The translations under genes and the position numbers were made by a program. The notes under the pieces were generated by a model. That model saw only the letters and a program-made list of their open reading frames with translations, was not told the DNA's origin and did no database searches. Below, piece by piece: positions 14,867 through 55,682 of a stretch of 64,000 bases of DNA (its first letter is position 1; every line of letters begins with the position of its first letter). This stretch comes from Pohlia nutans (taxonomy: Eukaryota > Streptophyta > Bryopsida > Bryales > Mniaceae): NCBI GenBank assembly GCA_022496805.1, contig CM040088.1, forward strand, positions 21,917,001 through 21,981,000, in the 5' to 3' direction.

Positions 14867-15771
14867 TGAACCCCTAACTGCCTGAGCGTCCATTTTTTGG
14901 ACGATGTACAAATTTCATCCATAATGTCTCATCCGTCATGCACTTTTTGCAGTGTGGATTTTTTACTGTAGATTCTATGGGAAGTTAGTTTCATGCATAT
15001 GTGATCCGATTAGAAAGGGGATGATTTGTGAAATTTCTATGCCTCATTTCATGTAGTGATTCACCCAAAATTTTAAAGATTTCAGTGTAAAAGTGCTCTT
15101 GAAAAAGTCAACTCATAAAATTAAGCAACTAAAAAAATCTCCAAGAAGCACTACACTTAGAGTATTACATTTCAACCAATCACAAAAAATTTCATCTGTA
15201 GATTGTCAATATCTTATTCGAAATTGAGTTACAAAATAATTTTGAATTTCATGTTTCAAATTTTATACAAAATTATTGGTAATAGCAATCATAGGTCTAA
15301 CCGTATAGATAGAATCTAAAATTCATAATGTACAACTTTTATTCATATATCAAGTTCAAAATATCCCTCTAGGTTGCATTTTATAAGGCATCTTTGCAAA
15401 ACTGTCGAATTTGGAGAGATGTTAATATGAAAGATTGCAATGGAGAGGTGTTGACATAGGTCACTGTTCAACATCTTCACTTTCACTTTAGAAAATTTAA
15501 CCCAAATTCTATTTAACTTTGAAGTCATTGACCCTCCCAAATCTCATTTTTGAGTGTGCATACTACAGTTCAAAGACATAGTATGATCTTCCAATCCCAC
15601 CATCGGATGATTCTCTAATTTTGGCAAAATGTCTCCACTCCAGTTGATAATACAATTGTACAGTTATTTTCCAATTTAATCCATTCTAGTTCTGGTAGTA
15701 TCAATTATAGTGGAATAACCCAATGAAATCCAGTGAACCCAGCTATAGTAACCAAAGCGTTAAAGGGTTAA
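14867..15771. mobile_element. TTAA/CCC element, family A, degenerate or enlarged copy
   Basis: The left end reads TGAA-CCCCTAACTGCC, then GCGTCCATTTTTTGGACG, and is followed by about 550 bp clearly similar to 15796-16372 and 20104-20673, including the shared stretch CAAAACTGTCGAATTTGGAG near 15395. The family A right end is not present there. The sequence runs on for about 350 bp to GTTAAAGGGTTAA, ending 15771. This may be an insertion into the copy or two abutting elements. Confidence 0.6.
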
Positions 15772-15795
15772 GGAGTTCTTGAATAATTGATCTCA

Positions 15796-16372
15796 TTAAC
15801 CTCTAACTACCCAACCGTCCATTTTATGGACGATGTACAGATTTCATCCACGTTTTCTCATTTGTCGTGCATTTTTTGCAAGGAAAGAAAATACTACGAA
15901 ATTCTATTTCAGTATAGCTTCATGCACGTGTGCTCCGATTAAAAAAGGGACGATTTGTGAAAAAAATTGTGCACTATTTCATATTGTAGTCATTCCCCAA
16001 AAATTTCAAAGATTTTAGTCTAAATGTGCTCTTGAAAAAATAAACTCATAAAATTAAGCAACCATAAAATCTCCAAGAATCACTACATTTAGAGTAATAC
16101 ATTTCAAACCATTGCAACAAATTTCATCCACAAATTGTCAATATCTTATTCGTAAATGAAGTACAAAATATGTTTGAATTTCAAGTTTCAAAATTTATAC
16201 AAAAATATTGGTGATAGCAATCCTTGATCCAATTGAATGGATAGAATCTAAAATTTATCATGTACAACTTTTATTCATACATCAAGTTCACAATATCCCT
16301 TTTAGTTGCATTTTATAATGTATCTTTGCAAAACTGCCGAATTTGGAGAGGAGTGAAGACATTAGGGGTTAA
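15796..16372. mobile_element. TTAA/CCC-ended MITE, family A (577 bp)
   Basis: Bounded by TTAA at both ends (15796-15799 and 16369-16372). Just inside are CCTCTAACTACCC at the left and GACATTAGGGG at the right. An internal GTCCATTTTATGGAC palindrome follows the left end. There is no coding capacity. It is highly similar to 14867-15420, 20104-20673 and, inverted, 40479-41064. Confidence 0.85.
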
Positions 16373-16979
16373 TCAACACCTAAGCAAGGAATTTTGGAAG
16401 TCAGGATCACAAGGCAAGAATTTCTTTTCTAAGTTTGACTTTAGGCCTATTGTTTGGACCTCGAACACTTTGAACTATGGATTCAAATGATTATATTAAT
16501 CCAAATCGGCGGATTATGGAGCAACCATGTTTAAAGGAATGCCTAGACTGCATAGGTCCTTGAATACCTGAATACACCAGTAGAATTCATTTGATTGTAA
16601 TCCCTGTCAGGAAAGCATAAACATTGTTACTGGAGTGGATAACAGAGATTGTTGCAACCTTTTTCACAACTAGCGTCATACAAAGATTCCATAAACCTGG
16701 CCAGATAGGCCACTTATGATAAATACATTGAAAATATAACTGTGAATTTAGTTTAGTGACTCATTGAATGATTCACATAAATACTCTACAAACGTACCTA
16801 GTGGTCAAGATGTACCACGAGGTGTCATTGCAAGTATATCACCTCTGCTGCTCTTCACTTCATTCGCGCTTGATACATACACGGACATTTGTAGCATTCG
16901 ACGCCTGTGTCCACCACTCGGACTTGGTATTGATGGAAGAGGAACGGGACGACTTCCCTGCCTCAACAATAAGGCTAAG
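16373..16979. other. Intergenic, nothing recognised
   Basis: Mixed-composition DNA with short overlapping reading frames around 16764-17043 but no recognisable domain. No transposon end was found. Confidence 0.4.
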
Positions 16980-17614
16980 TTATCCCTTTGAGGCGCATGC
17001 GTCAACTATGTGGACGATGAAGAGATTCAAACTATTCTCCTGACTACATACATGGGCAATTTTCATCCATCCAAATTTGGACAAATTCTCATCCATCCAT
17101 TTGGACAAATTCTCATACATCCATTTCAACAAATTCATCCATTTGTCCAATTTCTCTTCATCCATCCAAATTTCTCTTCATTAGTTGACTTTCATTTGTA
17201 CGGTACGGATCTTCAAAATAAAATATTATGATTTTTTGAAGAACAACACAAATGGTTTATGTCAAGTTTCATTTTTTGTTCTAAAAGAGAGACTCTAAAC
17301 ATGATTTTCCAAAATAAGTAGAATCAAATAATGGAAACCATACCATCTCGTAGTGCATGTTATTCCAATTTCATTACAATATTTTCTGATTTTTTTGTGT
17401 TACTTTGGGATTTTTAATTGAATTTCAAGAGAATACCTTGCAAAATTAATTAAAAAACATTATTAAAAAATATGATGAATCCAACCATACAGATGTGATC
17501 TTCACATGGACATTTACAACTTTGTTGTAAACATCATCTCCATTTTTGTTTTTCATCAAACATTTTATAACGAATCTTTGAAAACAATGTTGAATCGGAA
17601 CGTTAAAGGGTTAA
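16980..17614. mobile_element. TTAA/CCC-ended MITE, family B, inverted copy (635 bp)
   Basis: The left end is TTAT-CCCTTTGAGGCGC (degenerate TTAA) and the right end GAACGTTAAAGGG-TTAA (17611-17614). It is the reverse complement of the family B elements at 22347-22893 and 41061-41608. A short tandem array built on CATCCATTTGGACAAATTCT occupies about 17058-17180 and explains its greater length; the same motif recurs at 17680-17710. Confidence 0.75.
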
Positions 17615-17804
17615 AGTGTAATGAGATAACAGAGCAAAAGTACTATATATTGTGGGTGGGTGAATGGCGTGGGTACATTCATCCATTTGGACAAATTCTC
17701 ATCTATTTTAACAAAATTTCATCTAATTTGGATGAATTTTACCATAGTATTTTGAAAATTTGATTATTAGTAAAGCCACTCGTAGATATCGTGGGCCACA
17801 GTAT

Positions 17805-18026: not shown

Positions 18027-18162
18027 TTAACCCCTAATTCATGAACAAATTCACTTTTGATTTCCTCTTCCACACTTCAGTTTTGCAGCGTGAAATTTTT
18101 ATTGAATATTTTATGGATAGTTACTTTTCTAATTCCGATTCAAATATGCGACCTTCCCAATA

Positions 18163-18455
18163 TCACAAACTTAGGAAGTCATGTTTTTGCAATGTTTTAC
18201 GTATGTTATTGAGATGAACAGGGGTGATTACGTTCGACATACGTTTTATGTAAATTTATTGTATAGAAACCGTACGAACGACATATTACAAACATGTAAA
18301 TTTTATCATGATGTTTTTTTTCATGTTTGTAATATGTCGTTCATACGTTTTCTATACAATAAACATACGTAAAGCGTATATCGAACGTAATCATCCCTGT
18401 TCATCTCAACAACATACGTAAAACATTGCAAAAACATGACTTGCCAAGTTTGTGA
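18163..18455. mobile_element. 293-bp foldback element, copy 1
   Basis: A near-perfect inverted repeat. The left arm begins TCACAAACTTAGGAAGTCAT and the right arm ends with the complement, CCAAGTTTGTGA. The arms are about 135 bp and meet around a short centre at about 18300-18325. Transcription of either strand would give a long hairpin RNA. The second copy, 57815-58107, has the same length. I could not determine a target duplication. Confidence 0.85.
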
Positions 18456-19264
18456 TTTGAGTAAATGCAAGAAAAGCTCCCCCAAACCACATTCAAGTTT
18501 CCATGGTGAAATCTCTAAGTGCCCCTACTCCGGCCTCACTCTCCCAAAACCAGCTGCTTGGCTGGTTGTGTTTGAATTTGTTATGAAAGTTTAATAAATG
18601 TATGAAAATATAAGGTAGAGATATGCCAACCCCTCTCAACTTTACAAATAATTGTAATGTCACTTATGAAATTTTGGCAAATTTTTTAGTCTAGTATGTT
18701 GTCATTTCAGCAAAAGAACTTTTCTTCCATTTCATCACGTTTCAGTGCTTGGCCACGTAGTCCCTTTTTTGTGATACTTTTGGAAGTATATCAGATTACA
18801 AGTATATCATTACAAGTATATCAAGTATATAAGATTACAAGTATTGGAAGTATATCATTGTTTATATGACAATGTAGACTTTTCAGATCTGCTTCATGAA
18901 CTAAGACCCATGTATCTCACACATTCACTTTGGTATTTGTACAAGATTTTTTGGAAATCATAAAAAAAATAAAAATTTGTGGTTATTCATGAAAAAGCAC
19001 CCCTATCTAGCATTTTCAATGCCCCCAAAAAGGTGGTCAATCACTAAAACCTGATTCATCTTGTTCTATTATAGTCAATCGCGAAGTGAGTTTCTGCTTA
19101 CATAGGCTTTCGCTAAATTTCATATATATTATTGTTGAAATGTTGAAGAATCACAATTTTTTATCACTCCTTAAACTATTTGGGGAAAAAGTGTGGGTTT
19201 TGGACGAGAAAAGAGCTACTCTTGTAATCAAATTCATTCTAAGTGACTCCCAAATGCTATGGGA
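18456..19264. other. Intergenic, nothing recognised
   Basis: AT-rich DNA. A short tandem run of AAGTATATCA-like units lies at about 18784-18860. No gene or transposon ends were recognised. Confidence 0.4.
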
Positions 19265-20103: not shown

Positions 20104-20673
20104 TTGACCCCTACAGGACCATCCGTCCATTTTTGGAAGATGTATAGATTTCATCCATGTTTTCTCATTTGTCATGCACCTTTTGCAAGGAAAAGAAATA
20201 CAGCAAAATTCTGTGGCAAGATAACTTCATGCTTGTGATTAGAAAGGGGATGATTTGTGAAATTTTTATGCCTCATTTCATGTTGCAGTGATTCACCAAT
20301 AATTTCAAAGATTTTCGTCTAAATGTGATCTTGAAAAATAAACTCATAAAAGTAAGCAACCAAAAAATCTCCAAAAAAATCACTACACCTAGAGTATTAC
20401 ATCTCAAGCCATCACAACAAATTTCATCCACACATTGTCAATATCTTATTTGTAATTGAATTACAAAATATGTTTGAATTTCAAATTTCAAATTTTATAC
20501 AAAAATATTGGTGATTGAAATCGCAAATCTAACGGTATGGAAAGAATCTAAAACTTATAATGTACAACGTTTATTTATACATCAAGTACATAATATCCCT
20601 CTTTGTTGTATTATATGATGCATCTTTGCAAAACTGTCGAATTTGGAGATGGGTGAGGACGTTTAAGGGTTAA
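20104..20673. mobile_element. TTAA/CCC-ended MITE, family A (570 bp)
   Basis: The left end is TTGA-CCCCTACAGGACC (one change from TTAA) and the right end GACGTTTAAGGG-TTAA (20670-20673). The interior matches 15796-16372 throughout. There is no reading frame of note. Confidence 0.8.
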
Positions 20674-21731: not shown

Positions 21732-21962
21732 TTAACCCTTGAACGGCCCGAAAGCCCTTTTCGGCCGTATAGTATATCATGTATTCGGTGGCATTCGATC
21801 AAAATAACAATGACCAAACACTTTTCAGTACAAAGTAAATTAATAATCATGATAATATGTTTATAACAATATATCACAATTCATATATTAAACCACAATT
21901 GAACAATTATAAGGCTAAATACGGGTTGTAGAGAGGGACCCCAAGGGCCTTTTAAGGGTTAA
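21732..21962. mobile_element. TTAA/CCC-ended MITE, family D (231 bp)
   Basis: TTAA-CCCTTGAACGGCCC at the left and GGGCCTTTTAAGGG-TTAA at the right, with TTAA at 21732-21735 and 21959-21962. The interior resembles 54186-54418. Confidence 0.85.
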
Positions 21963-22346
21963 ACGTACAGTACATGAACAACTTGCAAACAGGTAGCGTT
22001 TTTGACGACACGCTTAAATACCTTAAATACGTTTAAATACGCTTAAATGAGTCTTGTTGAATGGAGATTACTCTGTCAAAGGAGTATCACCAGATTTACA
22101 GTGGGCTTCCTTTCAAGATCGATATGTTGATGCAGTTGCTTCCTCTTTGCCAGTCTACTCACTTGTTTTACATTTGGAAACAGGATTATGCGAATTTGAA
22201 AATTTTCACTATCACTTTATCCACAAGGAAATGAAGTATTTTAACCTATAAAGTACCAAGAAGCTCAAATTGGGCATTATGTTATTTTTAAGCAGTTTCA
22301 AACAGGTCGTATGGGGACTTTCTTTTGTTCAAATTTATTTGGTTCT

Positions 22347-22893
22347 TTAACCCTTTAACGTCCCAATTCAACATTGTTTTCAAAGATTCGTTATAAAATG
22401 TTTGATGAAAACTAAAAATGGAGTTGATGTACAAAGCAAAGTTGTAAATGTCAATGTGAAGATCACATCTGTACGGTTGGATTTATCATATATTTTTTAA
22501 TTTTTTAAACTAATTTTGCAAGGTTTTCTCTTGACAATCAATTAAAAATCATGAATTAATGGAATTTTTAATAAAAAAAATTGTAATGAAATTGGAATAA
22601 CATGCACTACGAGATGGTATGGTTTCTATTATTTGATTCTACTTATTTTGGAAAATCATCTTTAAGGTCTCACTTTTTGAACTAAGAATGAAACTTGACA
22701 TAAACCACTTGTGTTGTTTTTCCAAAAATCATAATAACCTATTTTGGAGATCCAAATTGTACAAAGGATAGTCAACTTGCACAAGAACCATGAGAAATTT
22801 TGGTGGATGAAAACTGTCCAATTTGGATTGAATTTGAACAGTTTGAATTTGTTCAGCGTCCACTCTGTGGGCACAGGCGCCTGAAAGGGTTAA
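22347..22893. mobile_element. TTAA/CCC-ended MITE, family B (547 bp), inserted in a family F element
   Basis: TTAA-CCCTTTAACGTCCC at the left and CGCCTGAAAGGG-TTAA at the right (TTAA at 22347-22350 and 22890-22893). The interior matches 41061-41608 and 28574-29117. Its host sequence shows one TTAA-like tetranucleotide at the empty site, so the two flanking TTAA copies are a target duplication. Confidence 0.9.
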
Positions 22894-22945
22894 CCAACAC
22901 ATGCAATGTTTTGCACTATTGAACTAGTGATATAAATTCTGGTCC

Positions 22946-23569
22946 TGGGTTGAAGTACACTACGGGTGCTACACTTTGGGCATAAAAAATTAGTACTTTT
23001 TAGTCCTTTTTCAGTACTATTTCAGTACTTCATATATTTTGAGCTCGATCTCCACATCAGCTAAGAGGTTTTTTTCGGTTTTCAACATAAGACATTCTAG
23101 AAAACAATATGATTGTCTCGTAGCACTAATTGATGGTTGGAAATTTGCTACCATCGTGTCAGAACTTACTGCAGAAAACAATTGCTTTAAACAAACAATA
23201 TCTTTTCAAGCAAAGACCTTAGGCCATCACATACTACAGATTCAAGAAACTATTGTAACACTCTTTTCACATGCAAAACAACCAATCTAAATATATTATA
23301 GTTTAGAAGATATGGAGTACTTTTGCCAATTTTGAAACTTCTTACAGTACTTTCATTTTGATTAAAAGTACTAAAATGAAAGGTAATTAATGTTCCAAAT
23401 ACTCTTCCAAACACTTGAATATAATGTTTATAAGGTATCCCTCCTCTATTAAAACAAAAATTCTCATTTCAAGAATACTTAACCACTCACTTTTACACTC
23501 AAAGTTTAGCACCTCCAGAAAATTGTACTTCTTATGTACTTTTTTTGTACCCGTAGCATACTTCTACCC
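22946..23569. mobile_element. hAT-like non-autonomous element (about 624 bp)
   Basis: Imperfect terminal inverted repeats of about 25 bp: GGGTTGAAGTACACTACGGG at the left, and at the right the complement of GGGTAGAAGTATGCTACGGG. The flanks TCTGGTCC (22938-22945) and TCCTGTCC (23570-23577) match at 6 of 8 positions, consistent with an 8-bp target duplication. It is inserted in the family F element described at 22241. The hAT assignment rests only on the duplication length. Confidence 0.6.
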
Positions 23570-24258
23570 TCCTGTCCAAATTATGCTTTTCACAACATAA
23601 TCAATTTAATATGTCATTTTATAACCATGAATTCTTGGTCCTTTAGGGATTAACAGAAATGTGTTAAAAGGATGGCCTGTATTTAGCATATCTATTGAAG
23701 TTTTTATTTATTCATTCTTCCCTTTGTAGTATAGGTATTTGTCTAGAGGAATAGCAGCTTCAAACTTGTGTGAAGGGTCTTAAGAATCATTGTTGCTGAA
23801 TCATTTCCCATTGAAAGGTGTGCAGCCTATTGCAATAAACTCTCGAGGAACCCATTTACATCCAAGGAATCTACGTAGTAGTCCATACTGAATTGCTTCC
23901 TTCATTGCCTTAATTGCTTAATCAACACCTTGTGATCTCATCTTCATTCATTGAAGTACATAAAACCGCTTCATGTACACCGAATTCCACCTATAACTTA
24001 TTTCTTTTAGTGTTCGTTTGAAGTGAGCTGGAATGGGTGAAATTGTGGATCATTAATAGGGTGCAAAATTGGGTCGTGTGCGTTTTTAGGTTTGTCCATC
24101 TTAGTAGAAATGATAGTGAAAAAATATTGCTTAGGATAAAAGGAATATATTGGTAGTCTATTCTTTGATTTGTGCTTAATTTGTTAGCGGAGATGTATGC
24201 TTGATTGTCACTTGAGATAAAGTGTCGATGAAGTATCTCTCTTTATGCTATTTGCGTA

Positions 24259-24481
24259 TTAACCCCTAAGACTATAAGGCACCCACAGGGCCTCTTGTTT
24301 GTTTTAGTAGTTGTGAGTAGGTTTTATGTAGATTTTTTTTTTTCAAATTTATTTATGTTTTATTCAATATATGTAACATTCTTCACTAATTCCAGCGATA
24401 TAAAATTTGGTCCCATTCGAATTATATTTTCCACAGTATGATTGTTTTCAAACCATGAATCCTTGCTCCTTTAGGGGCTAA
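24259..24481. mobile_element. TTAA/CCC-ended MITE, family F (223 bp)
   Basis: TTAA-CCCCTAAGACTATAAGGC at the left and CTCCTTTAGGGG-CTAA at the right (one change from TTAA). The interior has the family F core AATTTGGTCCCAT and the ACCATGAATCCTTG piece near the right end. Confidence 0.75.
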
Positions 24482-27252: not shown

Positions 27253-27999
27253 AAGTACACAAGAAGTGAGTTTTTCCTTGTGAAGCTTGTGTTTGCTCAT
27301 GTGTGGGTCACAATCAACATATGAGCTTGCTAAAGTCAATGCTAGCTTATGTTCGTTGCACTAGAGAACACACTACAATGAACATCACTATGCTATCACA
27401 TACCACATCCCACATTCCATACATACCTGTGGAGTATGGTATTGCCTCGATAGACAACTACTCCAAAATAGAAACTTGTTGTATTCAAATTTGATGAAAT
27501 CAATCTAGTTTGCTTAATTTTGTGATTTCTTTCGAAAGCATCATCTATTATGTGACGAAGGGAGTATATAGGTTCACCTATAACCGACAACAATGAGATC
27601 AATTCCTGAACATAAGCTGCTTTGTGTTGGCATGTTGTGTGTTGGATTAGTTATGGAGTACTTATTGACTATGGGTACTTCTACCTTGTTACAACCTTTT
27701 TACAACTTTTGAGTTCATGACTGATTTGAAGATTGCTTTTGATTAAGTTGGGAACCTCTGGAATGTTCTGAGGCTCTATTTGTCTGATATCCCATGTACT
27801 CCATAATACCATAGCACTTTGGGTTTTTTGGCTCCCAAAATTAGACGAAAAGAATCTTTGAATGCTTGTAGGGCACACAAGCCACTTCGGAGTTAGAGAA
27901 ATCCTCTCGAAATATACTGTACTACAAGAGAGTAAATAATTCTATTTCATTTGGTGAAAAACAGTTCATGATATTGAGGGTTGAAACCTCCTTAACCCT
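27253..27999. other. Intergenic, nothing recognised
   Basis: No gene-like frame. GACGAAGGGAGTATA at about 27554 resembles a Stowaway right end, but no matching left end was found. Confidence 0.35.
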
Positions 28000-28577
28000 T
28001 TAACCCCTAAAAGTACTAGGGTGTCCTTAGAATTGACAATTTGAGAAAAATCATCATAAAGTACTATGTAGAAGAATATTTTGGAATTAATAGACAAATG
28101 AAAGTTCTAGAATTTTTATTTTTAGATTCCATCCATACAGTTCAATTCACCAATACTATCACCAATGTTTTATTATAAAGTTATAAAGTTAAAATTAAAA
28201 ATTCCTTCTAAATTTGATTACAAACAAAACATTAACATTTTTGAGTAAAATTTGTTGGAATGGATTTGAAATGAGATACTTTTACCGTGGTGATTCTTTG
28301 AATTTTTTTTTACTAATTAAATCTATGACCTCATTTTTGCAAGGCCACTTTTGAACTACAGTCATTGCAATTTCGGCTTAGTCAACAACTTGACATACTT
28401 CTACAATTGTAATTTTAGAAAAATATGTACTCCAATATAATCAAATCCAACCTTTTGAATAGGATAACATCTTGATGAAGTATCTCCAAAAATTGAATGA
28501 CTTTCATCCAAGCACTAATAAGAACGTAGGGTGGGTTTGAATCTGTTAGTCATTCAGCTGTGACATTTAGGGGTTAA
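28000..28577. mobile_element. TTAA/CCC-ended MITE, family E (578 bp)
   Basis: TTAA-CCCCTAAAAGTACTAGGGTG at the left (28000-28003) and GTGACATTTAGGGG-TTAA at the right (28574-28577). An extra TTAA-CCC lies just outside the left end (27992), so the end looks doubled, as at 37857-37867. The left portion matches the complement of the right portion of the element at 37356-37860. Confidence 0.8.
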
Positions 28578-29117
28578 CATCCAGATCACCACCGATTTCA
28601 AAGATGTGTTATAAAATGCTTGATGAATCACAAACATGGAGTTGTAGTATATAAAGAAAAGTTGTAAATCTTAGTGTGTAGATCACATCTGTACAGTTGT
28701 ATTTATCAAAAAAATTATTAATCTTTTTTAGTTATATTTGCAAGGTTTTCTTATGACATTCACTTTAAAATTCCAAATTAACTAATTTTTCATTAAAAAA
28801 ATCTATAACGACTTTGGAATAATATGCACTATGAGATGGTATAATTTCCATTATTTAATTCTACTTATTTTGGAAAATCATTGTCAAGGTCTCACTTTTT
28901 GAACTAAGAATGAAACTTGACATAAACTTGACATTTTTGACATTTGAAAAGAATCACAATATCTTATTTTGAAAATCCATACTCTTCAAATGGTAGTCAA
29001 CTGGCACAAGAACTAAGGAAAATTTTGATGGATGAAAAATTGTATGGGATGTAGTCAAGAGAAGGCTTACAATCTGTTCATTGTCCACTATATGGATGCA
29101 AGCGAGTCAAAGGGTTA
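28574..29117. mobile_element. TTAA/CCC-ended MITE, family B, left tip lost (544 bp)
   Basis: The right end is GAGTCAAAGGG-TTAA (29114-29117). The interior matches 22347-22893, with GTTATAAAATGCTTGATGAA near the left. The left end starts TTAACATCC and abuts the preceding family E element at a single TTAA. The CCC tip is missing, so the junction may be a deletion. Confidence 0.7.
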
Positions 29118-30415
29118 ATATCTAATTTTTTTACTTTCAATATCTTGCACATTTTTCATCAAATGAAACAAACACTATATCTTTGTAGTACATAAATATT
29201 GTTATGTTGTTATGCATTATTCGAGGCATTATCCCATTGAAGGCTTTTTAGGTTTTCCAACACTAATTTTTTTGACATTTTGCATTAATCTATAGAATCA
29301 GTCAAATGGTGAATAAGGCATTTTTGGCTTCTGATATGTACTAACGACATAGATTTTGATGTCTAAATTTTTATTAAATATTCCATTTTAAAGAAAGAAA
29401 ACTTAATTAACAGATCAATTTAAAGAATCTTCATGAGATGAATTCTATAAAATATGAGCCCCTTCCAGATAAGAAGTTCTCATAATGTACTTTTTCATAA
29501 TTTCTATATATCATAATTAACTGTATTTGGTGACAAACGTGCAAGATGATAAATTTTGCTTTAGTGCCATATATTGTAAATGAAAGATATGAAACGCCTT
29601 CTTTGAACTATAAGGGCCAAATTTTCTTCGATTTACTCTCATTAAAAGAATTTATCTTTATAGAGATATGCTAAGGAAGTATTGTTTTGAATAACTCTCA
29701 TTGCTTTTAGACCTATTTTACTCCATACATGATGTAATGTACATTTCTAAAGAGCTAAAGAAATGGGAAAGAAGCTAAATCTACTTTGAACAAAAACTTG
29801 TTTTCATCATGATAATACACTATTTTGTATGGTACGCTATTTTATATATTACACTATGTTAAGACAATTTAGTGTATAATAATTTATTTTGCAGTCCTAT
29901 AAAACATTAGCAATATCATGAAGTAGTGTACTTGTAATTGATGAACCCATTTACCAAGTTTTGAATCTTCTGTTGATCACTTGTTGATTGACCTCTTGTT
30001 ACTTGAGAGACTATTCATTAAAAAAAACCTCTTGATGGTGCTTTCAACGTAAAAAATTTAATTTAAAAAAAGTAGTTTGTTTTATAATATGTTATTTTGG
30101 TGTTACGTTAAGTCACAAATGACACTAAACATAATAAAGTGTATAGTAATCTATACATTAAGAGAGGTTGTTTGTTTTGTTTTGTTACGTTGAGATCTCC
30201 CCAACCATGCACCCCCCTAGTGCGTTCTTAGTACCGTCAGAAAACTCTCGACATAAAGGGGTGCACGGAATTTGTCTTGTTACGTTTGGACCTTCGGTGT
30301 GAAAGTTATGGATTTTAAAATGAATTTCAACACAATAAATTGAATTAAATTTATGAAAGATGAAATATGGGGTTTTTGATGTCATTATTGGTATCGTTGA
30401 AAAGCTCTTGACAAG
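29118..30415. other. Intergenic, nothing recognised
   Basis: Very AT-rich; no convincing gene, RNA gene or element ends. Confidence 0.4.
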
Positions 30416-38862: not shown

Positions 38863-38864
38863 TA

Positions 38865-39110: not shown

Positions 39111-39112
39111 TA

Positions 39113-40478
39113 TTAGATTATGTACAATCATAATTTTTTTTGAAACAAAACGTATTTGTGGTTTGGAAACAAATTAGTCTTAAAATTAGAGTTAGCCATC
39201 TCTTTAACTTGGTTTTGAGGTTGTTATTAAAAATACTCTTTAATTTTTTTCAATTTTGTTTTGAATACCACAACATTTATCTTATACTTTGGCATGTTGA
39301 TATATATCATTTAGGATCCATCTTCATTATCATTTCAAAAATTTGACTTTCACAAGTTTTAAAAATATTAATAAAGTAATAAAATACATATAAGATTAGT
39401 ATGAATGGTGTTTCAAGATTCTTCATGTAATTATAGGGATGGGTTCTCATTTGCCATCTTCCATGATCCATGCATTGCAATGTGAGTCATTGTTGTCATT
39501 AAATGTCATGATGAATAATTAGTAATCAAAAACTAATGTTATATTTTGCATTTATATTGTATTTTTTCAATTTCAACATGTGATGATGATAATGTTGGGC
39601 TATGAAATGATGGTCCTTTGAATGATAATGACCCGGATAATGATTGTCCATTTCCTGTTAGAAATGGACGATTTTCATCTGGTTTTTGTTGTGCATGCTT
39701 TTTGGTTGTACTTCCTACTTCTTAAAATTTATTTTGGGTTACCCAAGGAAATTTGGATTTTACACTAGGTCTCTTGTGCAAAAAAAATGTAGTGAAAATT
39801 GATCACCGAATATTGTATTTTGAAATTTTTATCTTTTTTCTACCAAAAATTTAATTTAGGCTTGCAAAATGGTCTCTATTGCATTTGAGTCTACAAAGTC
39901 TAGTTTTAATTAAACTTGAATTCTTCCAGAAAAAATTAAAATTCAATGTTTTATTGCAATTTCAAGTTGAACACCTATTACCATTGGCTAGTGATTTTTC
40001 TAAATTTGGAAAACAAATGATTTTTCATTCACTATAATGTTCTTCATTATGATTTACAGTCATGGTAAAGGAATTGAAGGTTTTGAGTGTATTTTCTAAT
40101 AAATATAGATTTTCTTAATAATCAGTTAAAAATCACAATAATTTCAAATCTCTACCAAAATTTATTATAAAAATTATGACTTGTAGATAACACATGCCTT
40201 TGTCTATTAAAAAAATAAAATTGCATTCTTATCCAATTTTAAGGTACAAAATTGAGTGTGAACGTAAGAGCAGCCACAACCCTTTCCAGACGACCCATCT
40301 TTAAGACTTTACTAGAGATTGCTACAATTATCTACGAGTTTCACCCCACCATGACGCAACAAACACCAACACACATCTAGACCAAACACCATTGATAGTC
40401 CATAGTAGATGAAATATTTCACAATATAGTCCATAGTAGAAGACAACAAAAGAGGATGGGATGCAACTACAATCCTCT
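39113..40478. other. Intergenic, nothing recognised
   Basis: Very AT-rich; no gene or element ends recognised. Confidence 0.4.
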
Positions 40479-41064
40479 TTAACCCCTAAATGCCTAGAGC
40501 CCTTTCCAAATTTTGCACTTTTGCAAAGATGTATTATAAAATGCAACTAAGAGGGATATTTTGAACTTGAATAAATGAATAAAATGAATAAAAGCTGTAC
40601 ATTATGAATTTTAGATTCTATCCATACGGTTAGATTTATGATTGCTCTCACGAATATTTTTATATAAAATTTGAAACTCAAAATTCAAAATTCTTTTGTA
40701 AGTTGATTACAAAATCTATGAATGAAATTTGTTGTTATTGGTTGAAATGTAATACTCTAGGTGTAGTGATTTTTGGAGATTTTTTGGTTGGTTAATTTTA
40801 TGAGTTGACTTTTTCAAGAGCACTTTTGATTCGTTTTGAACTAAGATCTTCGAAATTTTTGGTGAATTGTTGCAACATGGAATGGGGCATAAAAATTTCA
40901 CAAATCATCTCCTTTCTAATCGGTTCACACATGCATGAGAGCTAACTCCCATAATATCTACAGTGAAAAATCCACACTGTAAAAAAGTGCATGACGGGTA
41001 AAAAAAACATGGATGAAATTTGTACATCGTCTAAAAAATGGATGATCGGGCAGCTAAAGGTTAA
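40479..41064. mobile_element. TTAA/CCC-ended MITE, family A, inverted (586 bp)
   Basis: TTAA-CCCCTAAATGCCTAG at the left (40479-40482) and CAGCTAAAGG-TTAA at the right (41061-41064). It is the reverse complement of 15796-16372 and 20104-20673. First of three elements joined end to end. Confidence 0.88.
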
Positions 41065-41608
41065 CCCTTTAACGTCTCGATTCAACATTGTTTTCAAAGA
41101 TTCCTTAGAAAATGTTTGATGAAAAAAAAAAATGGAGTTGATGTTCGTAGCAAAGTTGTATATGTCAATGTGAAGATCACATCTGTACGGTTGGATTCAT
41201 CAGATTTTTTTATTAATATTTTTGAATTAATTTTGCAAAGTTTTCTCTTGAAATTCAATTAAAATTTCCAAATTAATACAAAAAAATTAGAAAATATTGT
41301 AATGAAATTGGAATAACATGCACTACGAGATGGTATGGTTTCCATTATTTGATTCTACTTATTTTGGAAAATCATTTTTAATGTCTCCTTTTTTGAACTA
41401 AGAATGAAACTTGACATAAACCAATTGTGTTGTTTTTCAAAAAATCACAATATCTTATTTTGAAGATCCGTACCATTCAAATGATAGTCAAGTAGCACAA
41501 GAACCAAGAGAAATTTGGATGGATGAAAACTGTTCATATATATGTAGTCAAGAGAATAGTTTGAATTTGTTCGTCCACATAGTGGACACAACCACCTCAA
41601 AAGGTTAA
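41061..41608. mobile_element. TTAA/CCC-ended MITE, family B (548 bp)
   Basis: TTAA-CCCTTTAACGTCTCG at the left and CCACCTCAAAAGG-TTAA at the right (41605-41608). It is highly similar to 22347-22893 in the same orientation. It shares its left TTAA with the preceding element and its right TTAA with the next. Confidence 0.9.
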
Positions 41609-42185
41609 CCCCTAAAGGACCGGGGGGGTTTTTAGCTTAGCTCTTGTTTTCTTGACTAGCTCTTATGACAAGCTCAATTCCTCATTGGTGTGGGTTAATT
41701 TTGACGATCGGCACTGTTGAAATTAAAGAAGACTTACATAGCTTTTGTATGAAAAAATGATCAACAAAATTGCACAATTTTTGAGAAAATGCCACCGTTG
41801 AGAAGATTGATGGAACTTGTTCGGGGTATTTTGTACATATGCTAAAATCGGATTGATCAAAAGTACTTCAAAAATTCTGAAATTTCTACCATGCATAATG
41901 ATCATCATTTTGAACATGTGCAAAAACTTTCACATAATTTGGAGGTGTGAGGAGGAAGGTATGAGGGTCTCAAGTGACGCCCAAATAGCCTCCTTGTAGC
42001 TTAAAAAATCACCAAAAATTGCACACTTCATGAAATTTTGATCAAGAAGTACGCACAGATTAAGCTCTCAAAAAGAACTAGGGTCTCTTTGTTGCTCACC
42101 TTACAATTCATGGCCCAACAACTCGAATTTCCTCACTTTCTAGTTTTAAAGCCGCATGGTGACCTCGTGGTCCTTTAGGGATTAA
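41605..42185. mobile_element. TTAA/CCC-ended MITE, family C (581 bp)
   Basis: TTAA-CCCCTAAAGGACCGGGG at the left and GTGGTCCTTTAGGGA-TTAA at the right (42182-42185). Terminal repeats of about 13 bp. The interior shares AAATGCCACCGTTG with 35925-36174. Confidence 0.88.
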
Positions 42186-42808: not shown

Positions 42809-45800
42809 TCACAGATCCATGCAAAGCTCTGTCAAGATGGTGGCGTGTCTTCGCCGTGTGCGATCTGTAATCTTCCACTTCTCCACCAGGACCTTCTTGA
42901 GGGAATTACAACCGGCACAAACCGTGGCCACGCCCACCGACGTTATGCACGGGCAGTACACCATGTGACATGATTCCAAAGTCTGGCAATTCGTCACCAA
43001 CTGACCTATCCCTATGTCCGTGATTTTCCGGCAATGCGACAGGATGACCTCCTTCAACTGTGTACACCCCTTTCCCAGAGCTGCAAGGCCTATGTCTCCC
43101 ACATTCTGCACACAACAGAACAATCAAAAAAAGTTTTAACACGACTTCGCAATCACTTCTCAGTGATGAGAATCAGGTAAACTACCCTATTCGTGCCACT
43201 ATGTATCAGTGGCTTAGATTTAATTTTTTTGATATATACACTACTAGTACGTGGTAGCACAAATAGGGTGACTTCCAAATCGTGGCACAAATAGGGTGGT
43301 TTACCTTATTTCCCACAATGTTAGAAATTTGATGACGATGGAGTTCATAGAACTCACTGAGGTTTGTTGTAATGTGATAGAAATCGGTTGATAACCAAAA
43401 TTGGGCTTCATGTTTTGAGTAGGTCATAGAGCGACTTTCTTTTGTCCAATTTTATTTAGTTTTCCACTAACACATGCAGTGTTCTTCAGTGATAATAAAT
43501 TTGATCCTATTTTTCACAATGTGATTACGGTAATTGAATTGGTTGGATCCTTAGTGTACATACCTGGCAGACGCTGACATCAAGGTGAATAAGGGAAGGG
43601 CATCCTTCAGCAATGCTTGATAACCCCACATCGCCCACACGATGGCACCCACTCACATTCAGAAGCCGCAGTTGGTGGCATCCTTGGCCAATTGCAATCA
43701 ACGAATCGTCGCCTATTCTGCTAAGCCAAGATCCAAAGACACCAAAACAATTAACAAAACGTGCCTAAAAAAGAAAAATAACTTTTTCCAGCTTTACAGA
43801 GAACAATAGATGGCAAATTATGGATGCAACGGATAGAGAGGTACCTGTCGCAGAAACGGAGACTCAGGTCTGTCAGCTTCTTGCAATGGGTCCCAAACGC
43901 CACTATGCCTCGATCACCGACCTGCACCCGTCATTGAAGATGTCACATAACCAAATATGGAAGGGAACTAAATTTGTTGTTGAGATATTTAACCCTAAAG
44001 GACCAAGAATTCATCATTTGAAAATGACAAATTCAATTGATCATATTGTGAAAAATATAATTCAGATGGGACCAAATTTTTATATCACCAGAATCAGTGA
44101 AGAACATTGCATGTGTTGGTCAAAAAATAAATAAATTTTAACAAAATAAAGCTCACATAGAATCTACTCAAAACTGCTAAAAACAACACGAGGTCCAATT
44201 CGGGCTTCTTGGTCCTTTAGGAGTTAAGCAGACATGAGATATCCACCTTGTAACAGCGCCGAATATGCAATCGTCGCAATTGGTGACAGCCCAGAGCGAT
44301 ATTGCGAATGGCAACATCACCAATTGACGAGCAATCTACCAAATGCAGCGCCTGAAGCTGACTACAGCCTTTTCCAACTTCCACCAATCCTTCATCGCCA
44401 ATCTTCTGGCAATACTTCAGAACAAGCTCTTGCAGTCCCCTGCATACAAAATAAATTGTCTTCTCAGCAAATGCACACAACAAGCCAAAGTGTGTGCTCA
44501 AGTGAAAAGCCACTCTTCCTCAGCAACAGATCCCCGTGTCAAAGTATCACATGATGCTAATGTTCAGTCGAAATACTGAACCGGATCAAAGAAAGTAAAT
44601 TAAGAGGAGTCGGCCCTACCGACAAGACCGACCCACAGCCTGGAGACCCGCCGTGCCAATATTGTGGCAGCCGTTGATTTCTAAGACTGCAAGTTGGGGG
44701 CAGCCACTTGCAATGGCAGCAAGGCTCCGGTCACTCACGTAGTACGAGTCACTCAATGTGACTGTCCTCAACTTTTTGCATCCTCCTCCAATCGCCACCA
44801 GACTCCTGATATTGATCAATGCAGGGTGGCCATGCAGGTTAACAATCTAACTGAAAATTTGATTCTGTTTAAAAAACACAACATTCTGTGCAGCATAATT
44901 GGCATCTTGAAAAGGAAACGAAACGAATCTAAACATACATGGTTCATCAAAGGAAGAAACGTGAAGTATAGAATGCCTTAACTATTAAAGGACCAAGGAT
45001 TCATAGTTTTAAAATGACAAATCAAATTGATCATATTGTGAAAAATATACTTCAGATAGGACCAGATTTTATATCATTGGAATCAGTGAAGAACAATGCA
45101 TGTGTTGATCAAAAGACAAATAAATTTGAATAAAAGGAAGTCTACATGGGACCTATTCGAAACTGCTATAAAAAACATGAGGCCCAATCTGGGCTTCTTG
45201 GTCCTTTAAGGGGTTAATTGATTGATGAACGTTTTGAAGGTGAGGAAAAAGTACCGGTCTGTGAATTTCTGGAAGCTGAACAAAGCCAAGGTCTCCAACA
45301 AAGTGCAATTGCGGCCGACGACTTGCAAAGCCTCATCACACACATTCACACATTGGAGCCGGAGCATTTGCAGTTGTGAGCAACCTTGCGCGATTGCCAA
45401 GACACCGTCTGTCTGAATGCACTCCGAGTCCAACGTGAACTTCTTCAGCATGACACAATGGCTCCCCACAGCCTGCAACGCCAGGTCTGTCACACGCGCA
45501 CACGCTGCGATGCCAAGCGACTTGAGTGACTTCCCACATCCCTCAGCAATTCCCACTATGCCATCATCACTGACCCCCTCACAAAACCTTAAGTTGAGCT
45601 CCTCCAGCTGCTTGCAAAACCGGCCCACTGCCTTCAATCCTTGGTCCCCAACGTAGCAACCCTAACAAACACCAACACAACGTCACAAACAACACGAACA
45701 TAAAAGGACCAGGATATAAACGACCAATTCAATTAATCATACTGTGAGATAACAGACTTCAGATGAGACCAAATTGTATGTCACTGGAATCAGTGAAGAA

Positions 45801-48222
45801 TATTGTATGTGTTGCTCGAAAATGAATAAAATTGGACAACAGAGAGTCTTCATATGAGCTACGCAAAACTGCTAAAAAACACGAGCCTAGCTCCTTTAGG
45901 GGACATACAAACACGGAATGTTAATGGGGAGAATGGGACACAAACATAAAGGAAGGACCAGGTAATAAAACGACCGATTCAATTGATCATATTGTGAGAA
46001 AAGAGAATTCAGATGGGACCAAATTGTATGTCACGGGAATCAGTGAAGAATATTGTGTGTGTTGCTCGAAAATGAATGAAATTGGACAAAAGAAAAATCT
46101 CCTTACGAGCTACGCAAAAGTGCTAAAAAAAACATGACATACATACCTGCATGTCCAAGACCTTCAAGCCTCGGCATGCTTGGGCGACGTCAACGAGGCC
46201 GCAACTGGTGACTGCTGAGCACCAGATGAGGCAGAGCTTTTCCAGCCGGGGACACCCTTCCGCCAGAAACTGCAGTCCCATGTCGGTGAAATTACTCAGC
46301 CCAATGTCATGGTTGTCATCGTCGCATGTCAGCACCGCATGTTGCCCAGACCTCCTCCGTTTCCTGGACAATGTCACTCCCATTTCCTTCCCCTGGGGAT
46401 CCACATACACATACACATACTCAAATCAGCAGTCACCATAGAACCAGTCCCGTGCATTTCCACACTCCAATTCCGTTTGTAATTGTTGGACCTACTACCT
46501 CGTCCACTGAATGTAATAAAGCAAAAGATGGTACAGCAATAAACCAAAAGCATCCATTCCAAGAGCTAACAAAAACACAACATATACCCTCACATGATTC
46601 TAAAAAATTCGGAAGCTTCCATTCCAAGAGAAATGCAAAAACACATAACACATACACTCACATGATTCAAGCTTCAATTCCAAGAGCTAAAGTAAGAAGT
46701 GCAAAAACGCAACACAATACACTCACATGATTCTAAAAAATTCTGAAGCTTCCATTGAAGTGAGAAATGCAATAACACACAACACATACACTCAGATGAT
46801 TCTAAAAATTTCGAAAGCTTCAATTCCAAGAGCTAAAGTGAGAAATGATGCACAGTCACTGACGTGATTCTAAAATTTCCTAAAGCTTCCATTCCAAGCG
46901 CTGAAGTGAGAAATGATGCAAAAACACACAACACATACACTCACATGATTCTAAAAATTTGGAAAGCTTCAATTCCAAGAGCTAAAGCAAAAACACAACA
47001 CACACACTCACATGATTCTAAAAATTCCTGAAGCTTCCACTGCAAGAGATAAAAGTGAGAAATGATGCAGAAACACAAACATATACACTCACATGATTCT
47101 AAAAAATTCTAAACCTTCAATTCCAAGACCTAAAGTAAGAAATGCAAAAACACAGCACATACACTCACTTGATTCTAAAAATTTCTGAAATCAATTTAAG
47201 AATATCTATACGAGTCCTATGAAAACAACTAGAATTCTTGGCAAACATCCTCAATGAAAGCTTCAATTCCAAGAGCTAAAGTGAGAAACGATGCACAGAC
47301 ACTGACGTGATTCTAAAATTCCCTAAAGCTTCCACTCCAAGCGCTAAAGTGAGAAACGATGCAAAAACACACAACACATACACTCACATGATTCTAAAGG
47401 CTCCGTTTCAAGTGAGGAAAAGAAAAAACACATAACATGATTCAAATAAAGAAAATTTCTGAAGCTTCCATTGCAAGTGCTAAAGTAAGAAATGCAAAAA
47501 CACAAACACATACACTCACTGATTCTAAATTTCGAAAGCTTCAATTCCAAGAGCTAAAGTGAGAAATGATGCACAGTCACTGACGTGATTCTAAAATTTC
47601 CTAAAGCTTCCATTCCAAGCGCTGAAGTGAGAAATGATGCAAAAACACACAACACATACACTCACATGATTCTAAAAATTTGGAAAGCTTCAATTCCAAG
47701 AGCTAAAGTGAGAAATGATGCACAGACACACTGACGTGATTCTAAAATTCCCTAAAGCTTCCATTCCAAGCGCTAAAGTGAGATCGAGATGATGCAAAAA
47801 CACACAACACACACACTCACATGATTCTAAAGGCTCCATTTCATCACATGATTCAAATAAAGAAAAATTCTAAAGCGGGCGGGGGTTTGTTTGCTTACAA
47901 GGAAATGGCGCATGTTGCGGGAGCAGAGGGCATGGCGATGCGCGACGCGGCGGTTGACAGGCAAGGGCACGGGCAAGCGCTCGTCGACACACACTTGGCG
48001 GAGGTTGGTGAATCGCTGCACCATTTTGGCCAAGCACGAGTCGGATTGCCCGGTGGCGCCGAGAGTGAGCGAGTGGCGGCTGGCGCTTTCCAACGCGCAC
48101 CAGCGCTTGCACACCAGCGCGCACGCGTCGCGGTCGCTGTTCCGCCCGTCCACGTACTTCATGATCTCCATCAACGCCTCGTCGGGCAACATGCTGTTGA
48201 TTAGGTCCACCGCCCCCTTCAT
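42809..48222 (-). CDS. FBL4: F-box/LRR-repeat protein, FBL4 type
   Basis: Complete gene read leftwards. Exons: 48222-47899, 46392-46147, 45661-45255, 44805-44620, 44439-44247, 43921-43845, 43717-43564, 43105-42809. They total 1884 nt (627 aa, close to the roughly 610 of Arabidopsis FBL4). The F-box is near residues 11-45 (LPDEALMEIMKYV, then DACALVCKRW), a basic RKRRR patch at about 118-122, then tandem cysteine-containing leucine-rich repeats from about 130 to the end, with repeated GC..L..L.L..C patterns. The protein ends in ELCMDL; MVYCPCITSVGVATV nearby is the family's C-terminal signature. F-box/LRR proteins join SCF ubiquitin ligases through SKP1 and hold the substrate with the repeats; the substrate is unknown. 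Introns 2, 3, 5 and 7 contain transposons and intron 1 a minisatellite. Confidence 0.95.
43174..43307. mobile_element. Short inverted-repeat element Y in F-box intron 7
   Basis: It begins AGGTAAACTACCCTATTCGT and ends with the near-complement GGCACAAATAGGGTGGTTTACCTT; about 134 bp. The right half matches, inverted, 59823-59880. No clear target duplication. Confidence 0.65.
43989..44227. mobile_element. TTAA/CCC-ended MITE, family F (239 bp), F-box intron 5
   Basis: TTAA-CCCTAAAGGACCAAG at the left (43989-43992) and CTTGGTCCTTTAGGAG-TTAA at the right (44224-44227). Terminal repeats of about 15 bp. It ends 20 bp from the neighbouring exon (44247-44439), close to that exon's splice donor. Confidence 0.9.
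44978..45217. mobile_element. TTAA/CCC-ended MITE, family F (240 bp), F-box intron 3
   Basis: TTAA-CTATTAAAGGACCAAGG at the left and CTTGGTCCTTTAAGGGG-TTAA at the right (45214-45217). Highly similar to 43989-44227. It lies 38 bp from the splice donor of the exon 45255-45661. Confidence 0.88.
45703..46140. mobile_element. Two degenerate family F copies in tandem, F-box intron 2
   Basis: About 45703-45905 and 45955-46140 both start AGGACCAGG and carry the family F core (CAATTGATCATATTGTGAGA, then ATCAGTGAAGAATATTG). Both have lost clear TTAA/CCC tips. They resemble each other more than the other copies, suggesting a segmental duplication inside the intron. Confidence 0.7.
46545..47870. repeat. 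Minisatellite of about 75-80 bp units in F-box intron 1
   Basis: About 15 or more imperfect units built from GATTCTAAAAATTTC, AAAGCTTCAATTCCAAGAGC, TAAAGTGAGAAATGATGCA and AAACACACAACACATACACT. About 200 bp from 46799 recur almost unchanged from about 47522, giving a higher-order period near 720 bp. The array fills most of the 1.5-kb intron and ends about 30 bp short of the exon 1 donor. Confidence 0.92.
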
Positions 48223-48500
48223 CGCAACAGCCCTGTTTTCTTCCTCCTCGTAAGTTACTCATCAACCAGCAATCCACATCCTGGCTTGCTTCTTCTTCTT
48301 CTTCTTCTTCTTCTTCTTCAGAATTCCACACCAAATTGCGCGGAATTCTTCACTGCCAAGAAAACCAAGAACAAACAAAGCTTGAAACCCTATGCTGCGT
48401 TATTACCATGTGCGAGAGTGATGATGACGATGATGATGAGTAGGCTACATCCATTACTGAGTTTTGGAGAAGATGATGGTGTGAGAGTGAAGCAAGCAGT
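48223..48500 (-). promoter_or_regulatory. Probable 5' untranslated region of the F-box gene
   Basis: Between the predicted transcription start and the start codon. It contains a (GAA)n tract on the coding strand (TTC repeats on the plus strand, about 48289-48319) and an ATCATC-rich run near 48420-48440. The extent is inferred from the TATA box. Confidence 0.5.
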
Positions 48501-48529
48501 GATCAGAATTTTCCATTATCATGCTTGCA

Positions 48530-48805: not shown

Positions 48806-48811
48806 ATGCTT

Positions 48812-49250
48812 TTTTTTAAGCAGTTTTGAGGAGGATTTCATTTTGTTCGAATTTCTCTCTTTTTTATGAGCACATGCAATGTTCTTCACTGATTCCAGTG
48901 ATTTAAAATTTGGTCGTATCTAAATTATTGATTTTTCATGATATGAACGATTGAAGTTGTCGTTTTGAAACCATGAATCGGTTTGGTCTTTTAGGGGTAA
49001 ACCCCTAAAGGACCAAGGTGATTCATGGTTTCAAAATGAGAAAGTCAATTAATCTTATTGTGAAAAATCAATAATTCATATGCGACCAAATTTTATATCA
49101 CTGGAATCAGTGAAGAACATTGCATGTGCTCATAAAAAAGAGAGAAATTCGAACAAAATGAAACCCTACTAAAATTATTGCAAAAAGAAAAAGAAAAAAC
49201 ATGAGGCCCAATTTAAATGGGCTTCTTCGTCTCCTAAAGGAATGGATGAA
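48812..49250. mobile_element. Two family F elements head to head
   Basis: The first copy runs leftwards from CTTTTAGGGG and the second rightwards from CCCCTAAAGGACC. They meet at TAAA (48998-49001), a one-base change from TTAA. The two roughly 190- to 250-bp arms are complementary over most of their length (family F core ATCACTGGAATCAGTGAAGA in the second), making a large hairpin. Outer ends are degenerate. Confidence 0.75.
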
Positions 49251-49273
49251 GAAGCCTGAATTGAACCTCAGTT

Positions 49274-51959: not shown

Positions 51960-51994
<35 letters not shown>

Positions 51995-54185: not shown

Positions 54186-54418
54186 TTAACCCTTAAAGGT
54201 CCAGAGAGCCCTTTCCGACCAGTATTATATACTAATATTCCATTGTATTTGGCATGGTTCCACACCTCCTATGAGTTTACGATCAAAAGTGAAGTTAAAA
54301 TTCACGTTGACATGATTCTAATGAGCTATTGGGGTCTCAATTTGGAGCTTTCTATTTACAACAAATGTCAAATATATGCCAACGTATATACTATCTCCAT
54401 CAGCCCTTTAAGGGTTAA
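54186..54418. mobile_element. TTAA/CCC-ended MITE, family D (233 bp)
   Basis: TTAA-CCCTTAAAGGTCC at the left (54186-54189) and GCCCTTTAAGGG-TTAA at the right (54415-54418). The interior resembles 21732-21962 (AGCCCTTTCCG). Its right TTAA is also the first four bases of the next element. Confidence 0.85.
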
Positions 54419-54638
54419 GGTAGAGGGCTCTAAAACCAACAGGGTTCTAATTCCAACAGAATCTAGGCACAATAATCATCCTAGAAACTAAATCTAGGTA
54501 GACCATAAATAGCTTATCATTTTGGTCAACATCCAATAAGAGCTCTACGATATGCCTAGATTTGTGTTCTAAAATAAATACATGGTCTAGATTCTGTTGG
54601 AATTAGAACCCTGTTGGTTTTGGAGCCCTCTACCTTAA
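54415..54638. mobile_element. 224-bp MITE with 52-bp terminal inverted repeats
   Basis: Arms 54415-54466 and 54587-54638 are complementary with a single mismatch, starting TTAAGGTAGAGGGCTC. TTAA at both ends could be target duplication or part of the repeat. The internal ends (GGTAGAGG) differ from the CCC-type ends, so this is a different family, possibly Tourist/Harbinger-like (TAA target). Confidence 0.85.
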
Positions 54639-55455
54639 TGAAAGCGGGCTCTCTGAGTTTCACATGCACCCAGAACTTACAAATGCACTTTATGCACGTG
54701 CAAACTTCAAGCCGGATTTCTTGGTCACAAATCTCGGAACAGAAATCCACGACTTTGACAGACTGGCACTGCCAGCGAGCATAGTGTAGTCGTCTAGTAA
54801 GTTACCATCATCAGTTGTAATCCATGTCAGATTTTGCAACTTCCATCACATCCCTCACAAGACTCAAAAGGTGGAGTGCTGGACACCCGTAGCGTAGATT
54901 GATTTTGACATCCCATACGTCAAATCCACCCGCACTTCAAAATAACACACACACCCTGTACTTATGATTTGAGGACCATGCAGTGAGTTTCTCCTGTCTT
55001 TGTACAGTTCCTGTATAAGGGCAGGCTGAGCAAAAATAATATATATTTAAAAATGCCAAAATTCTAGGAAATTGTTTTTTCAAAAAAATCTGCAAAGAAA
55101 ACAAAAAGTTGGACACAATTTCAAGTGTCCAACTCAATTTCTGCACTTTAATTAATTATTGGGCACTGATGTGTCCAACTTGCCTTTTGACTATGGTACT
55201 ATAGTTGGTAAAAATAATTATTATAAGAGAAGCTCAAATCTTTACGAAATTATTTTTTCAAAAAAATCTATTTTGTATGATGAAATAGAGAATTTTGAAG
55301 AATATTCACATAATTTGGCATTTGTTGAAAAGGAGTTTTCCAAAACAATCAATTATTTGGCATGAGATGTTGACCCTAACAGTCCGGTATGATATACAAT
55401 AATCAAAGGGTGTTGTTTGAAACGACACTTTTTCAACATTGTGTTTAAAACTTCA
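54639..55455. other. Intergenic, nothing recognised
   Basis: Short frames only (for example 55159-55365), with no recognisable domain. Confidence 0.4.
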
Positions 55456-55682
55456 CTAACCCTTTATGATGCCCAAATTAGGCCTCTGGTTTTTTTTAAG
55501 CAGTTTTGAGTAGGTTCTCAGTTTGTAGACTTCCTTTTCTTTAAATTTATTTGTTGTTTGACCAACACATGCATTGATTCTGGTGATATAAAGTTTGGTC
55601 CCATGTGAATTATATTTTTAACAATGTAATTGATTGAATTTTTCATTTAAAAACGAGGAGTCCTTGATCTTTTGGAGCTTAA
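55456..55682. mobile_element. TTAA/CCC-ended MITE, family F (227 bp), decayed ends
   Basis: CTAA-CCCTTTATGATGCCC at the left and GATCTTTTGGAGC-TTAA at the right (55679-55682). The interior has GACCAACACATGCATTGATT and AAAGTTTGGTCCCATGTGAA as in other family F copies. Confidence 0.75.

Follow-up and report, generated by a model that had tools for sequence, protein, structure and literature searches.

Abundant TTAA-flanked miniature elements in a moss, very probably non-autonomous members of the piggyBac superfamily

The 64-kb stretch of the genome of the moss Pohlia nutans analyzed here (the window; contig C4, positions 21917001-21981000) carries a swarm of short, TTAA-flanked miniature inverted-repeat transposable elements (MITEs), which are very probably non-autonomous members of the piggyBac superfamily. 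In the mechanism that we propose, a transposase encoded by full-size piggyBac copies at other genomic loci would recognize the common tip, CCC(C/T)TAA.., and cut the element out; the element would then be joined to a TTAA target, with one TTAA left on each side. We infer that the piggyBac transposases now present move, or once moved, the MITEs and that individual transposase lineages may be assigned to individual MITE families; excision would be precise by analogy with animal piggyBac. What this moss harbors is a known superfamily, newly recorded there and abundant, with an unusual two-frame layout; judged by anatomy, the mechanism is predicted to be that of piggyBac.

Both TTAACCC and GGGTTAA occur 17 times in the window, where 200 dinucleotide shuffles give means of 3.6 and 4.3, respectively, and the longer tips TTAACCC(C/T)T and A(A/G)GGGTTAA occur 13 and 14 times against 0.61 and 0.68 expected from the same number of shuffles. 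A forward tip is followed by a reverse tip as the next one, within 1.3 kb, in 11 cases against a shuffle mean of 0.3, and the opposite order is seen six times, likewise against 0.3. By this enrichment over dinucleotide shuffles, a chance origin of the tip pairs is rejected. A looser scan for TTAAC..GTTAA pairs, in which 13 or more of 20 tip positions have to agree, returns 12 against 4.0 (50 shuffles), so that a single pair at that level may be due to chance.

An initial annotation of this stretch had described at least 13 elements with TTAA at both ends, and this description holds: all 13 listed elements start with TTAAC on the left, and all 13 right ends are bounded by TTAA (at 16372, 21962, 22893, 28577, 32179, 36174, 37860 or 37867, 41064, 41608, 42185, 44227, 45217 and 54418). 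It had also remarked that the base outside TA is nearly always T. With the outer base left free, the pattern TAACCYYTA on either strand has T outside in 18 of 19 tips, confirming the remark, against a background of T before 726 of the 2,484 TAA in the window. The element termini beside TTAA are CC..GG (CCC..GGG), a feature of the piggyBac superfamily. Doubled tips, TTAACCCTTTAACCCC, in which one TTAA end lies a few bases inside another, are seen at 27992-28003 and 37857-37867, in the related elements A5 and G.

The copies listed below come from self-comparison and profile searches, with H (41605-42185) added through comparison of the tips. Families A, B and D number five, four and two copies, family C has five longer copies plus fragments and decayed copies, and E, F and G are single; within the 40,818-base span 14867-55684, the listed intervals, H excluded, take up 9,434 bases.

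14867-15425, plus strand: A1, family A copy; left tip mutated, right tip lost
15796-16372, plus strand: A2, family A MITE; TTAA at both ends, left ~85 bp like the left end of full-size element L019
16979-17614, minus strand: B1, family B MITE; ~80 bp extra internally, right tip mutated
20104-20673, plus strand: A3, family A MITE; left tip TTGA
21732-21962, plus strand: D1, family D MITE
22241-23655, minus strand: family C copy, split by B2 (22347-22893) and by an unrelated second insert (~22943-23565)
22347-22893, plus strand: B2, family B MITE within the C copy; empty site from other C copies of the window
24259-24480, minus strand: family C copy
28000-28577, minus strand: A5, family A-like MITE; TTAA at 28574-28577 common to A5 and B4
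28574-29118, plus strand: B4, family B MITE
31714-32179, plus strand: MITE F; C-like ends and another middle, probably in an intron of a MutS2-type gene
35925-36174, plus strand: MITE E, probably intronic in the MutS2-type gene
37356-37867, plus strand: MITE G; two TTAA at the right end (37857 and 37864), probably intronic in the MutS2-type gene
40479-41064, minus strand: A4, family A MITE; TTAA at 41061-41064 common to A4 and B3
41061-41608, plus strand: B3, family B MITE; TTAA at 41605-41608 common to B3 and H
41605-42185, plus strand: MITE H; tips agree at 19 of 26 bases, no second copy known
43989-44227, plus strand: C1, family C MITE
44978-45217, plus strand: C2, family C MITE
45701-45901, plus strand: decayed family C copy
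45955-46137, plus strand: decayed family C copy
48811-49242, no single strand: two family C copies, head to head; junction at ~48997, common site decayed
54186-54418, plus strand: D2, family D MITE
55466-55684, minus strand: family C copy; tips decayed

The initial annotation had taken these for several families with only their tips in common, carrying unrelated cargo. The several families stand, but their interiors are not wholly unrelated. A profile of family A aligns to B copies over nearly their full length (E-values 3.8e-14 and 9.1e-12) and to the right quarter of G (1.4e-19), and MITE F consists of both C ends with a different middle; by their sequences, distant kinship links A with B and with part of G, and likewise C with F. 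Three pairs of elements abut with a single common TTAA (A5-B4 at 28574, A4-B3 at 41061 and B3-H at 41605), so that some of the longer units are compounds, which may have arisen by insertion into the TTAA that ends a resident element. The second insert in the split C copy (22943-23565) has inverted ends GAAGTAYRCTACGGGTRC and is a different kind of element.

The initial annotation had further predicted a piggyBac-like transposase in this genome, and the same assembly (697,796,988 bases in 332 contigs) bears this out. The DDE_Tnp_1_7 model (PF13843) gives 1,305 first-look candidates; 116 of these were scored, and all 116 lie over the Pfam cut-off, with E-values of 1.6e-81 to 3.1e-74 and matches on every contig from C1 to C22. 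No stop interrupts the match in 78 of the 116, a fraction that is biased upward since only the best candidates were scored. The same model has no matches in 14 control genomes, a weak control in that the identities of the genomes are not given. Nor, as had been noted, is there a transposase in the window itself, at least in six-frame Pfam scans of positions 14801-58902 at an E-value of 0.01 (1-14800 and 58903-64000 lay outside these scans); the only matches are MutS2-type and F-box, which indicate that the six-frame scan works.

Twenty transposase loci were fetched (handles beginning with L), and in 15 the transposase frame covers the domain. A 504-residue moss transposase is a distant match to Trichoplusia ni piggyBac (PDB structure 6x67; E-value 1e-36, 130 bits) and also matches piggyBat (9c0f; 8.8e-29). 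The three catalytic aspartates of 6x67 (residues 268/346/447, matched by counting) have aligned counterparts in this protein, and the three positions are invariant across all nine moss proteins of an alignment, in which identities of the other eight to the first are 31-71%. The C-terminal part of eight of the nine features a CxxC..CxxC..H pattern, a candidate for the cysteine-rich domain of the superfamily, with no Pfam zinc-finger model over its cut-off in the four transposases scanned.

A profile search for relatives, in which 5,470 candidates were scored, yields 207 matches. Among the 120 listed (P0213-P0332), which include the nearest relatives found, the best 80 are from jgi, ena and lgn sources, and organism names accompany only two, one from a wasp at 34% identity and one from a limpet at 29%. 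In a quick tree of the 15 moss copies whose domain is unbroken (five left out) and the 69 listed relatives of at least 440 residues (51 left out), all 15 moss rows and 46 of the 69 relatives form one group (support of 100 in the Shimodaira-Hasegawa-like approximate likelihood ratio test, SH-aLRT), with the moss rows spread over several lineages; the branches are long and the deeper order is unsure.

A search with DDE_Tnp_1_7 for a copy with the same ends had been suggested as a check of the original proposal, and its outcome is favorable: in 14 of the 20 fetched loci the transposase lies inside an element with the same kind of ends, TTAAC(C/T)(C/T) tips flanking it on both sides at a spacing of 4.7-8.0 kb. 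The transposase loci L016 and L024 are 98.6% identical over 6.4 kb, and this common stretch contains long arrays of short tandem units (~40-bp steps). Around the element at L019 lies another inverted pair without CC, TTAATGTATTCTTATTT.. (21 of 22 bases; L019:1878-7514), perhaps the ends of the repeat that received the element.

Empty sites can be read for B2 in the window and for two full-size elements. Upon rejoining the flanks of B2 with one TTAA, the sequence aligns across the join to ten window stretches at 65-81% identity; nine are copies of family C, and the tenth is the C-like end of F. The L014 element (5,968 bp) sits in a tandem-type repeat; its joined flanks give 361 first-look candidates, 40 of which were scored, and these 40 best-scoring rows all cross the join at 86-93% identity, rows beyond them (108 in all) including shifted matches to neighboring repeat units. 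In four fetched copies this site reads TTAA, TTAA, TTAG and TTAA. The L019 element (5,387 bp) breaks one arm of a hairpin, and the joined arm reads TTTAA versus TTTAG in the other arm. Family A provides a broader sample: 20 copies elsewhere in the genome, drawn from 28 non-window rows (43 rows in all) with a whole-query match, a choice that favors intact tips, have TTAA at 40 of 40 ends, with no strong preference at the six outer bases. The TTAA target is duplicated, as proposed from the start, and the empty sites of B2, L014 and L019 hold TTAA once, either intact or with one base changed, as is characteristic of the piggyBac superfamily.

The link between full-size elements and MITEs was sought by comparing 24 MITE ends with 28 full-size ends, 672 pairs in all, with z-scores taken against simple shuffles. 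The outer end of family A matches the left end of L019 with z-scores of 14.7 (A2) and 19.0 (A4), the runners-up scoring 6.3 and 5.7, and BLAST aligns the two over 85 bp at 70.6% identity (E-value 8e-10). The transposase frame of L019 is open. The right end of C2 matches the left end of L018 with a z-score of 9.6, and that of C1 scores 6.8. These matches establish a predicted partner lineage for family A, at one end, and a likely one for family C, also at one end. First-look genome candidates number 9,646 for A, 5,037 for B and 4,783 for C (candidates, unconfirmed as copies); in the 40 scored per family, primary matches are 85-100%, 93-100% and 87-100% identical, respectively.

A second reading frame accompanies many of the transposases. 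In 15 of the 20 loci, three of which are the sources of the queries, a frame akin to one of three short queries (152-202 residues) is found upstream of the transposase; the three, at L018:1667-2272, L014:6455-6910 (minus strand) and L027:6733-7221 (minus strand), carry a conserved YLFRR..W..GIP.EVN.FLR. Genome-wide, the accessory frame has 618 candidates. Among the 150 matches scored, 21 lie upstream of one of the 116 transposase matches in the same orientation, at a distance of up to 12 kb that for 20 of the 21 is 1.4-4.1 kb; one is in another arrangement, and 128 have none of the 116 nearby, as expected if most of the 1,305 transposase candidates are unscored. The frame has no Pfam match at an E-value of 1. 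It was not found among the 120 listed transposase relatives, which says little because these are separate gene predictions. It may encode either a separate protein or the first exon of the transposase. We found no earlier report in the literature of a conserved second frame upstream of the transposase.

Trichoplusia ni piggyBac is a single-gene element with CC-type ends at TTAA. The moss elements resemble it (6x67/6x68) and piggyBat (9c0f) in their DDE_Tnp_1_7 transposase, and T. ni piggyBac further in the three aspartates aligned to 6x67, the TTAA target and the CC-type ends. They differ from it in the upstream frame conserved in 15 of 20 loci and in their length, ~4.7-8 kb against 2,472 bp (excerpt of PMC10803768). 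The window MITEs are also akin to animal MITEs that excerpts of published work assign to piggyBac-type systems (corals, Daphnia Pokey MITEs, insects); unlike these, they have a moss host and comprise several families of ~230-600 bp, often abutting with one common TTAA.

Several observations weigh against the assignment of the MITEs to the piggyBac transposases of this genome. The transposase frame is broken in five of the 20 fetched loci; for five (L016, L020, L022, L024 and L025) the fetched stretch shows no matching pair of ends, and for L013 it shows only part of the left tip. At L010 and L019, the ends adopted are a lower-ranked pair with CC tips, taken over a better-scoring pair without CC. 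Two C copies at the B2 empty site read TTGA rather than TTAA, and TTAG is found at the L014 empty site in L071 and in the hairpin arm of L019. The right end of A resembles that of L019 at the tip only, and the partner links are weak for B, D, E, F and G, with best z-scores per family of 3.8 to 6.4. We read the one-base variants of TTAA as drift. Since all element ends were chosen by tip similarity, with lower-ranked pairs at two loci, independent checks were applied where possible: L015 and L018 (89.5%) are homologous over the whole distance between the tips, to within one base, homology between L009 and L011 likewise stops at the tips within one base, and the ends of L014 and L019 are fixed by their empty sites.

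The weak links for B, D, E, F and G would also be expected if the MITEs were piggyBac-related but the autonomous parents of most families had become extinct, the present transposases belonging to other lineages with similar tips. Window copies find their closest genome matches at 89% (A), 95% (B) and 94% (C), and these values point the same way in that no very young relatives are among the matches listed. We consider this possible but rather doubtful, given the strong match of A to L019 with its open transposase frame, and given that only 20 of the 1,305 transposase candidates were inspected. Far less probable are MITEs of the Tc1/mariner type, with a TA duplication, an element reading ACCC...GGGT and a preference for T-TA-A targets, even though the TTAA of the empty site is identical under both readings and an excerpt of PMC7466625 places Tc1/mariner elements in the moss Physcomitrium patens. 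The T outside 18 of 19 tips and the TTAA at 40 of 40 A ends argue against them, as do the two Stowaway-like TA elements of the window, which are not in TTAA (flanks judged by eye), and the full-size elements with these same ends, which encode a piggyBac transposase. Kolobok-type MITEs likewise duplicate TTAA, but their ends are 5'-RR..YY-3' in the excerpted text of PMC9587614, whereas the window termini are CCC..GGG, and the partners found are piggyBac, with no search aimed at Kolobok transposases; we give this origin the slightest of chances. MITEs of PIF/Harbinger (Tourist), with their TTA/TAA duplication, are frequent in plants, and TAA is contained in TTAA, but they are just as improbable, because a 3-bp reading makes the element ends lopsided and because ends and empty sites fit four bases.

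The preferred reading, non-autonomous piggyBac MITEs, was originally put forward together with the findings that would speak against it: empty sites showing a TA or a TTA/TAA duplication, or a partner encoding a Harbinger or mariner transposase. The empty sites instead fit TTAA, and the partner encodes piggyBac.

The remainder of the window holds genes and several other repeats. A near-perfect foldback at 54415-54641, with TTAA on both sides, has one TTAA in common with D2 and one related stretch in L028; its ends, GGTAGAGGGCTC..GAGCCCTCTACC, are RR..YY as described for Kolobok. Long palindromes at 18153-18460 and 57810-58117 form a two-copy family, ~90% identical. Stowaway-like MITEs (CTCCCTCTGTCC..) with TA flanks lie at 13347-13602 and 38860-39113, and a degenerate tandem array (46547-47843) lies between an F-box exon (47830-48258) and a leucine-rich-repeat (LRR)-type exon (45209-45661). 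The MutS2-type gene is marked by an MSSS domain at 37936-38061, with predicted exons upstream. A SPIRRIG gene occupies 57-14048: the Physcomitrium patens protein is 71.5% identical to the window DNA over 3,380 aligned residues, and identities are 51.8% for Marchantia (a liverwort), 48.8% for Diphasiastrum (a lycophyte) and 47.4% for Amborella, in line with a moss host. The match to the moss Ceratodon is only 53.0%, perhaps a paralogue, and counts against a simple reading of these identities. The window shows no Rfam match at gathering cut-offs, nor any hit in a tRNA scan.

The initial annotation had held that piggyBac is not an established plant superfamily. This is only partly right, as several plant papers list piggyBac. 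In the excerpts available, a MITE survey of 207 plant genomes has five other superfamilies and one special group (PMC12550479), and a review gives six superfamilies of plant terminal-inverted-repeat (TIR) elements, the word piggyBac being absent (PMC9033089). Excerpts of other papers count PiggyBac among seven MITE superfamilies of angiosperms (PMC10004981), name it among plant superfamilies by way of a general classification (PMC10794571), or, in the abstract of an animal paper, state that piggyBac has also been isolated from plants (PMC10813416). Repeat tables, again in excerpt, report 1,230 PiggyBac copies making up 0.00% of the assembly in C-fern (PMC6890710) and one copy of 75 bases in the grass Stipa (PMC8319324). 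No piggyBac transposon was seen in excerpts of three moss genome papers and the P. patens transposon paper (PMC7466625), the word itself having been sought in one of them only. Our literature search, to which subscription papers were mostly closed, turned up no account of moss piggyBac transposases or MITEs, or of such abundance.

The piggyBac superfamily has been studied mainly in animals. A moss with more than 100 transposase genes in good condition, and with candidate TTAA MITEs in the thousands, would show piggyBac to be capable of supplying a land plant with a large part of its small elements. There is perhaps an even chance that we are looking at a large and old piggyBac radiation in this moss or in mosses, with deep two-frame lineages, an upstream protein that is perhaps a second transposition factor, and MITEs driven to perhaps tens of thousands of copies. 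The moss may also offer plant biologists endogenous transposases of a type known for seamless excision.

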